Assembly: GCF_013456555.2 (NCBI RefSeq)
Contig: NZ_CP059154.1
Span: 1,116,001-1,180,000 of the forward strand
Origin: Natrinema zhouii
GTDB lineage: Archaea; Halobacteriota; Halobacteria; Halobacteriales; Natrialbaceae
Direction: 5' to 3'
Length of the DNA: 64,000 bases
The notes below the pieces were generated by a model. It saw only the letters and a program-made list of their open reading frames with translations. It was not told the origin of the DNA and searched no databases. Shown in pieces: positions 12,527 to 17,186 of the stretch (the first letter of the stretch is position 1; each line of letters opens with the position of its first letter). Both the position numbers and the translations under genes were made by a program.

Positions 12527-13384
12527 TCAGATCGAGGGCCGCGTTTCGAGGCTCTCGTACTCCCAGATCAAGTCGAAGTACCGTTTCATCCCGGCGACGA
12601 ACGACCCGTTCTCCGTAATTGCGGCCTGCCGCCGGTGGTTGGGAACGTCGGTCTCCTCGACCAGAAAAATCGCCTTGCCCGAATCGTAGTCCATACTCGG
12701 ATCGATGAAGGTACCGCGCCAGGGCAGCACCGTTTCGCTAAACCGGTAGTCGACGGACGGATAGTCGGTCGCGATCCGGTCGACGATGTCCGCCTGCACT
12801 GCCGCCTTCTCGGCCGGGAGATTCCGCGGGTCGAGAAACAGGACCGAAATATCGATCCCCCGCTCGAGTGCGTCCGAGACGGCTGGCTCGACGTCGTCGA
12901 AGTACGCGAAACTGTTCGTGATGACGGAGACCGTCTCCGACGCGTTTTGATAGAGCGCTCTGGTCTCAGTCTCGCTCGGGCCGCCGACGTCGACGACCGA
13001 AAACAGCTCCGACATCGGCGTCACCTCCTCGTCCGCCTGCTCGTATAGCGGACCGAACTCCTCCAGGAACTCGTCCTGTAACTCCTCGACCTCGTTGCAG
13101 TAGTCCTCGTACTGTTGTCGTCGGTTCTCCTTCGCCCGCTCGAGGATCTCCTCGGGGGATTTCGGCTGGTACTGCTTCGGTCGGCCGGGAATTACCTTGA
13201 TGAATCCGTAATCGGCCAACGAATCGAGGACGCCGTAGACCCGCGCTTTGGGGATGCCGGTCGCTTCGGAGACGTTCGGCGCGGTCGTCCGGCCGGCGCT
13301 CAGGAGGTGGGCGAGCGCCGTCGCCTCGTACTCCTTCAGGTCCAATTGCTGAAGTAGGTCCGTCGAACCGGTTCGGGTACCCAT
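12527..13384 (-). CDS. TrmB-family transcriptional regulator
   Basis: A 285-residue regulator with an N-terminal winged helix-turn-helix (about residues 10-75: LQQLDLKEYEATALAHLL, then a recognition region ATGIPKARVYGVLDSLADYG). A charged coiled segment follows (about 85-125), then a C-terminal ligand/PLD-like domain. TrmB proteins bind sugars and control sugar and gluconeogenic genes. It lies 129 bases downstream of, and on the same strand as, the three epimerase genes. A GGGTTTAC box about 27-34 bases before ATG 13384 suggests its own leaderless promoter. It is shorter than the global Halobacterium TrmB and may be a local paralog. The two TACT-N8-GAGT sites at 16712 and 17037 are candidate targets. 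Confidence 0.85.
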   Translation of the reverse strand: MGTRTGSTDLLQQLDLKEYEATALAHLLSAGRTTAPNVSEATGIPKARVYGVLDSLADYGFIKVIPGRPKQYQPKSPEEILERAKENRRQQYEDYCNEVEELQDEFLEEFGPLYEQADEEVTPMSELFSVVDVGGPSETETRALYQNASETVSVITNSFAYFDDVEPAVSDALERGIDISVLFLDPRNLPAEKAAVQADIVDRIATDYPSVDYRFSETVLPWRGTFIDPSMDYDSGKAIFLVEETDVPNHRRQAAITENGSFVAGMKRYFDLIWEYESLETRPSI

Positions 13385-13513: not shown

Positions 13514-14503
13514 CTACGCGTTCCGTCGTAGCAGTTCGCGAACCGACTCCGCAACCGTGTGACGCGCCTCCCATCCGAGTACCTCGTTCGCTTTCGAGGT
13601 GTCGACCGCGAAGTCTTCAACCAGCGTCTCGGCGCTTCGGGGGTTCTCGACGAGTTCGACGTCGATAGAGACGCCGAGTTCGTCGCGGGCGAGTTCCTGA
13701 ACCGTCTCCGCGACCGACATCACGGACGGATCTTCGGTACCCGCGATCTCGTACGTCTCGGTGCCCGTTTCGCCGTCGGCCAGTTGCTCGAGCAGTCGTT
13801 CCGTGCTCCGAACGTAGGATCTGGCTACGTCTTTGACGTGAACGAAGTTTCTGGACTGGGTTCCGGGTTCGTAGACCGTCAGCGCCTCGCCGGACGTCGC
13901 TCGATCGACGAAGAAGTTGATCACGGTCGGCTTGGAGACGACCGTTTCGCCGACGACGTGGTCGCCGTAGAGGTTCGACTTCAGTAACAGGTGGGCGGGA
14001 AACGAGCCGTCGGCGAACGATTCGATCGCCCGTTCGCCGAGGAGCTTCGTCCGGCCGTACCAGTTGAACGGGTCCCGGGGGAGGTCCGCGGTGATCGGGA
14101 ACGTCTCGGGATCGCCGAGGACGGCCATACTGAACGGGAACGTGAGCGCCGCTCCGTTCTTCCGACAGAACCAGGCGACGTTGTTCGTCCCCGTGACGTT
14201 GACCTCGTAGGCCAGCTCGGCATTTTCGTCGCAGTCGTCGACCCCGCTGATCGCCGCCAGGTGCAGCACGACGTCCGCTCCCTCGAGGCAGTCCTCGAGC
14301 CGTTGCCTGTTTCGGATGTCGACGTGGGCGATGTCCGTCTCGCCGACCGACTCGACCTGTCCGCGGTACTGGTTGTCGAGTGCGATCAGGTCCCACTCGG
14401 GATGTTCCGTCTGGAGTCGGTGGACGACGCGACTGCCGATATACCCGGCAGCGCCGGTGATTGCGATCGTCGGTGCGTCGCGAGCGGTCTCCGATCCGGT
14501 CAC
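13514..14503 (-). CDS. NAD-dependent sugar epimerase/dehydratase (extended SDR), third of three
   Basis: A 329-residue extended short-chain dehydrogenase acting on a nucleotide sugar. The NAD site is ITGAAGYIGS (residues 15-24), HLAAISG follows near 81-87, and the catalytic Y-x3-K is Y149/K153 in NWYGRTKLLGE. I start at GTG 14503 because it forms a GTGA overlap with the stop of the previous gene; an ATG far upstream at 14758 would lie wholly inside that gene in another frame. It is the last gene of the 16708-13514 operon. Products of such enzymes include 4-epimers and 4-keto-6-deoxy sugars, and the exact reaction is not predictable here. Confidence 0.85.
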   Translation of the reverse strand: MTGSETARDAPTIAITGAAGYIGSRVVHRLQTEHPEWDLIALDNQYRGQVESVGETDIAHVDIRNRQRLEDCLEGADVVLHLAAISGVDDCDENAELAYEVNVTGTNNVAWFCRKNGAALTFPFSMAVLGDPETFPITADLPRDPFNWYGRTKLLGERAIESFADGSFPAHLLLKSNLYGDHVVGETVVSKPTVINFFVDRATSGEALTVYEPGTQSRNFVHVKDVARSYVRSTERLLEQLADGETGTETYEIAGTEDPSVMSVAETVQELARDELGVSIDVELVENPRSAETLVEDFAVDTSKANEVLGWEARHTVAESVRELLRRNA

Positions 14504-15462
14504 GCTTCGAGCACCTCCGTTCGAGTTCGCTGCAATCGATCCGCGAGTTGGCGGACGCCGCGCCGGAGCGTCCACTCGGGTTCGAATCCCGTCTCGCCCA
14601 GCCGATCGAAGTTCACGTGGTACGACGGGCCGGGATGTTCGTCTTCGAGGTACGTGATCTCGAGTTCGCGGTCGAGTTCGTCGCGGACGATTTCGGCGAT
14701 TTCGGCGATTCGATAGTTCTCGTCGTTCGACCCCACGTTGTAGACCGTTTGCGGCCACGACTCGGGCACGAGCGCGGCGTCTGCGTACGCCCGTGCCGCA
14801 TCCTCGACGTGGATGAACGGCCGCCAGTTGTTGCCGTCGCCGTACACCGTCAGCGGGCGGTCGGTCAGGCCGCGGAAGACGAAGTGATTCACGACCAGAT
14901 TGAACCGGACGCCCGGCGCCCAGCCGTAATTCGTACTCATGCGCAGCGCGGTTCCGTCGAAGTCGTAGTCGTCCATCGCGTCGGTGAGCAGCCCTTCGGA
15001 CTCGACCTTCGATTCCGCGTACGGGTTGAGCGGGTCCGGTTCGGTCTCCTCGTCGATATTCGTACTGGCCGCCCGGCCGTAGTTGTTACACGACGACGCG
15101 AACACGACGGAATCGACGTCGAGCTTACCGGCGGCGGTAAGCACGTTCTCCGTCCCGCCGCGGTTGATCGCGAACGTCTCGTCGCGGCGGTCGTGCGTCG
15201 ACCCCGCACCGGTGATCGCCGCCAGGTGGATCACGCTGTCGACGCCGCGCATCGCGCTCTCGACGTCGCCGTACTCGCGAACGTCGCCGCGGCGGAATCG
15301 CAGCGTTTCGTCGAGACACCCGCGGAGGTTCGCGGGAGAGCCGGACGCGAGCGAATCGAGGACGACGATCTCGTCGACTCGCTCGTCCTCGAGCAACAGC
15401 GGAACGAGTTCGCTCCCGATGTACCCGCAGCCGCCCGTCACGAGGATGCGCATGTCACTCAT
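14500..15462 (-). CDS. NAD-dependent sugar epimerase/dehydratase, second of three
   Basis: A 320-residue extended SDR enzyme. The NAD-binding loop is VTGGCGYIGS (residues 8-17), the active-site strand is FASSCNNYG (121-129), and the catalytic pair is Y148/K152 in NPYAESK. The sequence NWRPFIHVEDAARAY near residue 225 is the usual nucleotide-sugar contact region. It overlaps the SQD1-like gene by 8 bases and the following epimerase by 4, so all three should be made from one mRNA. It could be a UDP-glucose/GlcNAc 4-epimerase or a related dehydratase; I cannot decide. Confidence 0.86.
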   Translation of the reverse strand: MSDMRILVTGGCGYIGSELVPLLLEDERVDEIVVLDSLASGSPANLRGCLDETLRFRRGDVREYGDVESAMRGVDSVIHLAAITGAGSTHDRRDETFAINRGGTENVLTAAGKLDVDSVVFASSCNNYGRAASTNIDEETEPDPLNPYAESKVESEGLLTDAMDDYDFDGTALRMSTNYGWAPGVRFNLVVNHFVFRGLTDRPLTVYGDGNNWRPFIHVEDAARAYADAALVPESWPQTVYNVGSNDENYRIAEIAEIVRDELDRELEITYLEDEHPGPSYHVNFDRLGETGFEPEWTLRRGVRQLADRLQRTRTEVLEA

Positions 15463-16708
15463 CCTCTGGAGTCGCAGAGGAGTGGGCCGCTTCGGACGAA
15501 TCGTCGTCGTCGAATTCGACGACCGTGTCGTCGTTTTCGTCGTCGACCAACACGCCGGGAAGGAACCGATCTTCGTGCGCTTCGACCGTCTCTCGATAGT
15601 CGACCAGCGTGCCGAGAACTTCCCTGACTCCCTCCTCGAACGTGGTCGACTGCCCGCCGATCAGGTCGGCGTACCGGTCGTTCTCGATCTCCATCTTGTG
15701 CGTTTCGTCCTCTTCACGGGGGTTCTCGAAGTGTTTGACGTCGACGTCGAGATCGAACTCGTCGGCGACGTCGGCGATCGTTTCCGCGATTTCGACGATA
15801 CTGATCGATCGCGTCACCTGATTGTAGACGGTGTGATCGTCGGGCCTCGTCTCGGGATCGGCGAGGGCCAGCTGCGCCAGTCCTTCGACCGCGTCCTCGA
15901 GCGCGACGAATGGTTTGCGCTGCTCGCCTCGCCCGTAGACGGTCATCGGGTAGCCGGCGACGGCCTGCGCGCAGAAGCGGTGAGCGACGACGCCGAAGTA
16001 GTAATCGAAGTCGAAGCGGGTCGCCAGACGCGGATCTGCGGCCGTCTCCTCGGTTTCGGTCCCGTACGCGATTGCCGTCCGAACGTCCGAAATCGGAATG
16101 CCGAACTGTTTGTGTGCGAGCCGCATGTTGGCCGCGTCGTGGGACTTCGTCAGGTGGTACCAGCTCCCGGCCATTGCGGGGAACGGGACCTCGTCGCGCT
16201 CGCCCTGATTCTCCATCGTCGCTCCGCCTTCGGGGATCGGGAACTCCGGCGCGCCGTAGACGCCGGTCGTCGTCGTCTCGATGAAGTGGGTGTCGGTCAG
16301 GTCGTGTTCCTCGAGCCCCCACAGCAGGTTGCGCGTCGCCTGGAGGTTGTTGTGCTGGGTGTAGTTCGCTCGCTCCCCGTTGATCTGGGAATAGGGCGCT
16401 GACGGCTGTGCGGCGGTGTGGATGATCGTCTCCGGTTCGTGGATCGACAGCAGACGGTCGACGGTCTCCTTGTCTGTCAGGTCACCCTCGACGAACGAGA
16501 GGTTGGTGAGGCCGTGAACTTCTTCGGCGGCGGCGATTCGCTCGTCAATATCGGTGACCGGAACGGCGCTAGTCGAGCCGACCGACTCGACCCATTCACG
16601 CCTGGCAAAATTATCGACGAGGAGGACTCGGTCGTTCGTCTGCGTTGCGATTCGCAGCGCCGTTGGCCAGCCGATGTAGCCGTCCGCTCCCGTTACGAAT
16701 ACGGTCAT
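15455..16708 (-). CDS. UDP-sulfoquinovose synthase-like enzyme (SQD1/Agl3 family)
   Basis: A 417-residue extended SDR that closely follows the plant SQD1 and Sulfolobus Agl3 pattern; these make UDP-sulfoquinovose from UDP-glucose and sulfite. It has the NAD loop GADGYIGWPTA (residues 7-17), VDNFARR (31-37), QPSAPYSQ (101-108) and YTQHNN (116-121). A Thr cluster at 145-148 precedes GVYG, the catalytic pair is Y184/K188 in WYHLTKSHD, and FDYYFG and MTVYGRGEQRKPF follow, then an ENPREEDETHKME segment like the C-terminal motif of SQD1. The last 40 residues are acidic and extra. ATG 16708 is preceded by an operator-like palindrome and a TATA box at 16735-16742, so the mRNA is probably leaderless. 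It is the first gene of a three-gene operon. Confidence 0.87.
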   Translation of the reverse strand: MTVFVTGADGYIGWPTALRIATQTNDRVLLVDNFARREWVESVGSTSAVPVTDIDERIAAAEEVHGLTNLSFVEGDLTDKETVDRLLSIHEPETIIHTAAQPSAPYSQINGERANYTQHNNLQATRNLLWGLEEHDLTDTHFIETTTTGVYGAPEFPIPEGGATMENQGERDEVPFPAMAGSWYHLTKSHDAANMRLAHKQFGIPISDVRTAIAYGTETEETAADPRLATRFDFDYYFGVVAHRFCAQAVAGYPMTVYGRGEQRKPFVALEDAVEGLAQLALADPETRPDDHTVYNQVTRSISIVEIAETIADVADEFDLDVDVKHFENPREEDETHKMEIENDRYADLIGGQSTTFEEGVREVLGTLVDYRETVEAHEDRFLPGVLVDDENDDTVVEFDDDDSSEAAHSSATPEDE

Positions 16709-16711
16709 GGT

Positions 16712-16728
16712 TACTCAGATACTGAGTA
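16712..16728. promoter_or_regulatory. TACT-N8-GAGTA operator (TrmB-type site)
   Basis: The site reads TACTCAGATACTGAGTA and contains the perfect inverted repeat ACTCAG-ATA-CTGAGT. It matches the motif TACT-N7-8-GAGTA published for TrmB of Halobacterium. It lies three bases before the ATG (16708) of the SQD1-like gene and downstream of its TATA box, so a protein bound here should block initiation. Confidence 0.7.
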
Positions 16729-16734
16729 AGTAGA

Positions 16735-16742
16735 GATAAAAG
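16735..16742 (-). promoter_or_regulatory. TATA box of the SQD1-like operon
   Basis: CTTTTATC on the minus strand, 27-34 bases before ATG 16708. The expected transcription start falls at or beside the start codon, and the TACT-N8-GAGTA site lies between box and start. Confidence 0.55.
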
Positions 16743-17036
16743 TTTTGTCGTTGATAATTGGTTATTTTTCATTTCGAATGCAAAGGGAGGAAACAATCCG
16801 AGTTTTCACCCGAGATTTGACGCGCCGAAACACCCCAGACGGCCAGAGTTCCATTTGTGAGTCCGTAGAAAATGACGATGAAACGGATGCTCGACAGCTA
16901 TTTGATACAATTCGGACCGTTCAGCGGCAGAAAGGAGAGAGTTACGCCAATTACAGTCCCGTAACGACTGCTTTTGCACGGCACTCGCTGATCGACCCAC
17001 CGGAATAGCCGAAGAACTTAATTAGCTGGTTGGAGT
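16743..17036. other. AT-rich divergent promoter region
   Basis: About 300 bases between two divergent genes, each with a TACT-N8-GAGT site. It is much richer in A+T than its surroundings. A weak + frame (TTG 16745 or ATG 16778, to 17008) and a 64-codon minus frame (17000-16806) are open, but neither has convincing codon use or recognisable motifs, so I call no gene. Confidence 0.5.
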
Positions 17037-17053
17037 TACTCAGAAAGTGAGTC
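17037..17053. promoter_or_regulatory. TACT-N8-GAGT operator, second copy
   Basis: TACTCAGAAAGTGAGTC matches the site at 16712 in 14 of 17 positions, with half-sites ACTCA and TGAGT five bases apart. It ends four bases before ATG 17058, and a TTAATTA box (17018-17024) lies about 35 bases before that start. The arrangement mirrors the SQD1-like promoter. Confidence 0.6.
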
Positions 17054-17057
17054 CCCT

Positions 17058-17186
17058 ATGAACACCGAGAGAGACGTGCCGGACGACGAGGAAGACCGGG
17101 ATCGAGACCACCTTTCGGCCGTCGACGACGGATGCGGCTGTACCGAGATCTGGGAACACCTCGCCGATCAACGATCGGACGAGTAA
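17058..17186 (+). CDS. 42-residue acidic small protein with a CGC-TEIWEHL core
   Basis: A small protein of 42 residues. The first half is highly charged; the second half has the core DDGCGCTEIWEHL (residues 23-35), with a C-x-C pair that could bind metal. Its own operator and TATA-like box sit directly upstream, which argues that it is real despite its size. I recall similar short proteins ending in GCTEIWEHLSE-type sequences in haloarchaea, but the function is not known to me. The gene is convergent with glmS, whose stop lies 10 bases downstream. Confidence 0.65.
   Translation: MNTERDVPDDEEDRDRDHLSAVDDGCGCTEIWEHLADQRSDE

Follow-up and report, generated by a model that had tools for sequence, protein, structure and literature searches.

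The window analysed here, a 64-kb stretch of DNA from Natrinema zhouii, holds a predicted operon on the minus strand and a small divergent gene on the plus strand. The first gene of the operon (15455..16708) encodes an SQD1-like short-chain dehydrogenase/reductase, a predicted target of regulation that was assigned from its family match and from its full-length similarity to plant SQD1 (PDB 1qrr, E 1.1e-70). Gene 2 (14500..15462) and gene 3 (13514..14479, start codon uncertain) of the predicted operon both encode NAD-dependent epimerases/dehydratases matching PF01370, and gene 2 is found beside the SQD1-like gene in most of 80 loci (best 80 of 127). A TrmB-family winged-helix protein (PF01978, E 1.2e-19) is encoded on the same strand at 12527..13384; the earlier note had placed a TrmB-family gene at 12527, where we found it. 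This protein is the predicted regulator, as its orthologs track the operator described below. On the plus strand, a conserved reading frame at 17058..17186 encodes a protein of 42 residues, a member of an uncatalogued conserved family and the predicted second target.

Paired putative operators at two start codons

Operator 1, TTACTCAGTATCTGAGTAA, spans 16711..16729 on the minus strand and ends 2 bp before the SQD1-like ATG, an assignment that rests on its letters and on conservation. Operator 2, TTACTCAGAAAGTGAGTCC, spans 17036..17054 on the plus strand, with an imperfect right half, and leaves 3 bp to the start codon of the 42-residue protein. The inner 17-mer of operator 1, TACTCAGATACTGAGTA, lies at 16712-16728 and is separated by three bases (16709-16711) from the SQD1-like ATG (minus strand, 16708), while the inner 17-mer of operator 2, TACTCAGAAAGTGAGTC, lies at 17037-17053 with four bases (17054-17057) between it and the small-protein ATG at 17058. 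These coordinates confirm the earlier observation of paired sites that have a common half-site geometry and stand 3-4 bases before two ATGs. Compared letter by letter, the two putative operators are versions of one palindrome, GTTACTCA-N5-TGAGTAAC, from which the 17037 site departs at two positions. The proposed fit to the TACT-N7-8-GAGTA motif is literal for operator 1, and operator 2 fits but for the last A. A TATA-like stretch was seen before each site, as had been noted: TTTTAT at 16736..16741 (minus strand) in the predicted promoter of the SQD1-like operon, in line with the A+T profile of 70 promoters, and TTAATTA at 17018..17024 (plus strand), predicted from its letters, before the small-protein gene.

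The pattern TACT-N8-GAGT has five matches at four places in the window, one palindrome being counted on both strands. Shuffled windows (n=100) held 0.88 such matches on average and none of the 100 reached five. The longer form TACTCA-N5-TGAGTA is present exactly twice in the host genome (5.34 Mb), against a chance expectation of 0.05-0.11 estimated from base composition with an assumed G+C of 60-65%. One of these two copies is the 16712 site and the other, at C1:861064, precedes a paralogous SQD1-like gene by 3 bp. A chance origin of the sites was rejected on the shuffles and on the genome count set against its expectation. When the shorter pattern TACT-N8-GAGTA was scanned through the host genome for sites of the classical sugar-sensing TrmB, many of the inspected loci lay in reading frames or beside no clear gene.

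Conservation of the palindrome and promoter architecture

The conservation set consisted of 80 SQD1-like loci from named genomes (best 80 of 127), in which the site was scored as TTACTCA-N5-TGAGTAA with up to three changes allowed. The palindrome ends 0-5 bp before the SQD1-like ATG in 69 of these best 80 of 127 haloarchaeal loci, and 38 of the 69 conserved sites are exact. No site was found before the SQD1-like gene in the other 11 of the 80 (L099, L104, L105, L111, L113, L114, L115, L118, L122, L123, and L124). A G precedes the palindrome in 61 of 70 promoters, that is, the 69 conserved ones and the window's own. Departures from the palindrome were one-sided in 38 cases and two-sided in one among 483 cells; the halves thus vary independently and there is no covariation. 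As judged from this comparison, the conserved palindrome resembles a protein-binding DNA site rather than a random word or the stem of an RNA.

In 53 of the 70 promoters, the centre of the most A+T-rich 8-mer lies 13-18 bp ahead of the palindrome's first base, and the positional A+T profile predicts a transcription start inside the palindrome. In the excerpted text of PMC4158304, archaeal and TrmB-family repressor sites are located downstream of the TATA box, where they block RNA polymerase, and TrmB-family proteins are also able to activate from sites upstream of the BRE/TATA. The placement of the box fits the position of an archaeal repressor in 53 of the 70 promoters, with transcription starts that are here predicted from sequence.

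Two side observations concern the upstream regions of other genes. Three Natrinema-type SQD1-like genes (L104, L105, and L115) lack the operator and have another upstream sequence in common, and their genomes are without a TrmB-like gene; they are possibly under a different control, or possibly show mere close kinship. Operator-like sites were also seen shortly before a GlmU-like nucleotidyltransferase gene, at L046 12154-12172 (1 mismatch) and at L116 419-437 (3 mismatches), hinting that the regulon may sometimes take in UDP-hexosamine supply. Since these degenerate sites occur in two species, a description of the regulon as having two targets may be too strict.

The TrmB-like gene and its co-occurrence with the site

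The predicted regulator scores 70.3 bits against PF01978 (cut-off 25.6), making it a member of the TrmB superfamily. In the Pfam search only this model reached E 1e-3 and no sugar-binding domain was matched; the C-terminal sugar-binding domain of sugar-sensing TrmB corresponds to PF11495. A further mark of the halobacterial sugar-sensing TrmB is its release from DNA by glucose. The TrmB equivalog models match the window protein only at N-terminal parts and far below their cut-offs, as with NF047392, which aligns to residues 10-87 only with 43.3 bits against 500. The earlier note had proposed a local sugar-responsive regulon. The sugar response is unsupported, because no sugar-binding domain was matched and the TrmB-model matches are N-terminal only, and that label was dropped; the idea of a local regulator is strongly supported by the comparative genomics given below.

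Several known regulators resemble the predicted one in part. The TrmB proteins of Halobacterium salinarum (VNG1451C) and Haloarcula hispanica are likewise TrmB-family winged-helix proteins, and the Halobacterium system shares the TACT-N7-8-GAGTA geometry, with a site downstream of the TATA box as part of the known mechanism (PMC4158304, excerpted text). It differs in that the window protein matches the model over a short stretch at 43 of 500 bits, that the halves of the window's palindrome are longer and almost fixed, with two main targets predicted, and that the presence of TrmB is linked to the site differently from that of the TrmB-like protein. The closest solved relative is TrmBL2 of Pyrococcus furiosus (residues 6-185, E 2.8e-19), which was also the best match in the fold search (E 9.0e-14), although with a low TM-score of 0.34, the model being of moderate confidence (pLDDT 68); by the title of its publication TrmBL2 is a chromatin protein, whereas the window protein goes with a single palindrome. 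OxsR of Haloferax volcanii is another TrmB-family regulator in a haloarchaeon, but according to its abstract it has a single winged helix, and its sites are described in part of PMC9426492 as CG-repeat palindromes 5' of the BRE/TATA. The operator would act as others of the TrmB family do, yet the window protein is not the Halobacterium TrmB; it would best be classed as a new TrmB-superfamily protein that has a small regulon to itself.

Co-occurrence was surveyed in 392 genomes of the host's order, with TrmB-like orthologs taken at E <= 1e-50 and SQD1-like genes at E <= 1e-100. TrmB-like orthologs were found in 137 genomes, SQD1-like genes in 162, and the exact operator in 104. Regulator and exact site were both present in 97 genomes, with 40 having the regulator only, 7 the site only, and 248 neither, so that the exact site occurs in 97 of the 137 genomes with the TrmB-like gene versus 7 of the 255 without. 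The 40 of 137 regulator genomes without a site, in a count limited to exact sites, tell against the proposed regulation, and so do the sites without a regulator or a recognised target given below. A reversed-pattern control was present in 31 of the 392 genomes (hand-read count): 7 of the 137 regulator genomes and 24 of the 255 others. For regulator and SQD1-like gene the corresponding numbers were 135 with both, 2 with the regulator only, 27 with SQD1 only, and 228 with neither. Within the SQD1 genomes, the site was present in 97 of the 135 with the regulator and in 3 of the 27 without, the latter being the three SQD1 genomes of the 392 surveyed in which the site was present and the regulator was not found. 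Fisher tests on the 392-genome table counted genomes as independent and ignored kinship.

The same association was seen locus by locus. The TrmB-like gene lies inside the fetched stretch in 27 of the 80 loci (best 80 of 127), and all 27 have the site. A genome-wide check covered 34 genomes, namely 23 site loci (of the 42 without a nearby TrmB-like gene) and 11 with a site-less SQD1-like gene. Among the 23, which have the site and no neighbouring TrmB-like gene, this gene was found elsewhere in 22, the one miss being Halostagnicola sp. A56 (L058). Of the 11 genomes whose SQD1-like gene has no site, nine are without a TrmB-like gene, and the other two, Halocatena pleomorpha and Haladaptatus sp. 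DYF46, have a second SQD1-like copy with a site (L096 and L098). Where sites were listed with coordinates, 52 of the 75 precede SQD1 by 3-6 bp, and a further 12 are found 44-102 bp upstream of the TrmB-like gene, not over its start. Seven of the 11 remaining listed sites were fetched: six sit at an SQD1-like gene or at a small gene, and the G190 site adjoins no recognised target in the fetched region. The last four include three at small-family matches (G041, G268, and G289), the fourth being G130. In several genomes, for example G177, SQD1 and the regulator are on different contigs, so the link between site and regulator is not one of mere neighbourhood. These comparisons support the view that the sites go with the TrmB-family gene, whether it is neighbouring or distant.

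The two sites are copies of one conserved palindrome, and we think it probable that the product of the TrmB-family gene at 12527-13384 binds them; joint repression of the SQD1-like operon and the 42-residue gene is the predicted outcome. In the proposed mechanism, the 8-5-8 palindrome, which covers the predicted transcription start, would be occupied by a dimer of the TrmB-family protein. Because the site is just 3' of the TATA-like box and over the predicted start, the bound dimer would exclude RNA polymerase from the promoter and so presumably repress it. Release would be triggered by a metabolite, plausibly one from the same sugar-nucleotide pathway, and the main targets would be the SQD1-like operon and the gene of the 42-residue protein.

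Other readings of the same sites were weighed. The host also has a true ortholog of the sugar-sensing TrmB (C1:21382-22428, 603 bits), which could bind both sites as part of a global regulon, both being of the published TACT-N7-8-GAGTA type (excerpted text of PMC4158304). However, its distribution does not follow that of the site: the classical TrmB occurs in 327 of the 392 genomes, in 88 of the 104 with the site and 239 of the 288 others (hand-read), and all 16 site genomes that lack it have the TrmB-like gene. Moreover, in the excerpts of PMC10817205, none of the 15 ChIP-seq peaks of the Haloarcula hispanica TrmB is labelled as such an operon, a species which may not carry it. The classical TrmB was ruled a quite unlikely binder. 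Co-occurrence would suit any other DNA-binding protein that accompanies the cluster, and two candidate regulators were compared; yet the TrmB-like gene tracks the site even when it is distant from SQD1 or sits on a different contig, and we regard a third protein as unlikely.

The TrmB-like protein could also bind the sites and activate, or act both ways depending on its ligand. Activation from a site upstream of the BRE/TATA does occur in the TrmB family (PMC4158304, excerpted text), but the A+T-rich box 13-18 bp before the site in 53 of the 70 promoters puts the site downstream of the box, and we hold this mode of action to be improbable. The position of the palindrome at the start codon, with the ATG included in 18 of the 27 selected small-gene sites, would also allow it to work as a hairpin in the mRNA. 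Against this, the palindrome tracks the gene of a DNA-binding protein; the hairpin was rejected on the predicted transcription start inside the palindrome and on the lack of covariation (38 one-sided versus 1 two-sided departure of 483 cells), and we consider it very improbable indeed.

The SQD1-like enzyme and the small-protein family

The SQD1-like protein, one of the two main predicted targets of repression by the TrmB-like protein, was compared with known UDP-sulfoquinovose synthases. Like SQD1 and Agl3, it keeps the catalytic Thr and YxxxK in the alignment to SQD1, which it resembles over its full length, and a strict WYH.TK pattern is present in 75 of 80 orthologs (best 80 of 127). It differs from them, in the same best 80 of 127, by a Pro for Agl3 Arg101 in 76 of the 80 proteins (4 misfit the pattern, and the position was assigned through the alignment to SQD1 and its numbering) and by a Thr for Agl3 Met145 in all 80. 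Across these loci (L046-L125), QPSAPY (76/80) replaces the QRSAPY of SQD1 and TTTTG[V/I/L]YG (80/80) replaces GTMGEYG. Ala mutants of Agl3 at Arg101 and Met145 are inactive, according to the excerpted text of PMC4388408. The score against NF041015 (SQD1/Agl3), 353.5 bits, is below the 575 cut-off, and with both residues replaced the firm name UDP-sulfoquinovose synthase was dropped. The Pro and Thr replacements make the product of the enzyme uncertain, and its chemistry may differ from sulfoquinovose synthesis.

The host has further copies of this gene. A second cluster (C1:857623-861299; L126 and L127) contains an SQD1-like gene behind a perfect operator and the two epimerase genes. Its divergent small gene lacks a good operator, and its TrmB-like gene is broken, shortened and interrupted by an in-frame stop. 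A perfect operator kept beside a broken TrmB-like copy would fit control in trans, without proving it. A third SQD1-like gene (C1:830140-831627, 78% identical) has a divergent small-family member beside it.

Members of the small-protein family were found in 358 of the 392 genomes, and no Pfam or NCBIfam model matched the family above chance level. The residues that do not vary in an alignment of 24 sequences are a His, an Asp-Gly-x-Gly-Cys stretch, a Glu, and an Arg. In many genera the small gene and the TrmB-like gene are divergently oriented. A scan of the 80 loci (best 80 of 127) for further copies of the palindrome returned recurrent sites at small-gene starts; these stand at the start codon or run across it, and those at ortholog starts match the palindrome better than operator 2 does. 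Among 27 orthologs, picked for having such a start-site (18 named loci and 9 others), the ATG is inside the right half, ATGAGTAA, in 18. No start-site was found at the small genes of L104, L105, L111, L113, L115, and L122 or at the L126 paralog.

The host genome has five copies of the small family. Three of them are divergent neighbours of the three SQD1-like paralogs, and no nitrite/sulfite reductase was found near the remaining two in the stretches fetched. In 12 extra-copy regions of other genomes, hand-picked from the top of the match list, a nitrite/sulfite reductase gene is close by in 5 and the other 7 are of a different kind. Where small-family members lie near a NIR_SIR gene (L208, L210, L211, L212, and L213), a conserved protein of ~110 residues is encoded between them. 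A partner role for nitrite/sulfite reductase-type or SQD1-like enzymes is what this distribution suggests, as a lead and not a finding. A role of the small protein as specific co-regulator of the TrmB-like protein was weighed and set aside: with the family in 358 genomes and the regulator in 137, at least 221 of the 358 are without the regulator. In PMC4388408, as far as its excerpted text goes, the delivery of sulfite to UDP-sulfoquinovose synthases in vivo is called unknown. There is a slender chance that the 42-residue protein is a one-cysteine carrier of the SQD1-like enzyme, which would hand over sulfur or another small group for UDP-sugars and would be derepressed with the operon, as its start codon is often carved from the operator; the copies near NIR_SIR genes would then do the same job.

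In the literature searched, which most subscription papers lay outside, we recognised no paper on the operator, on a TrmB-like gene with an SQD1-like operon, or on the small family. Repression by the TrmB-like protein would join an uncharacterised TrmB-family protein and an uncatalogued small family into one testable circuit that is found in many haloarchaeal genera and is tied to sugar-nucleotide chemistry. For the small-protein family, present in 358 of the 392 genomes, the tie to the SQD1-like enzyme would be a first functional address, and the residue changes may mean that this enzyme makes something other than UDP-sulfoquinovose.
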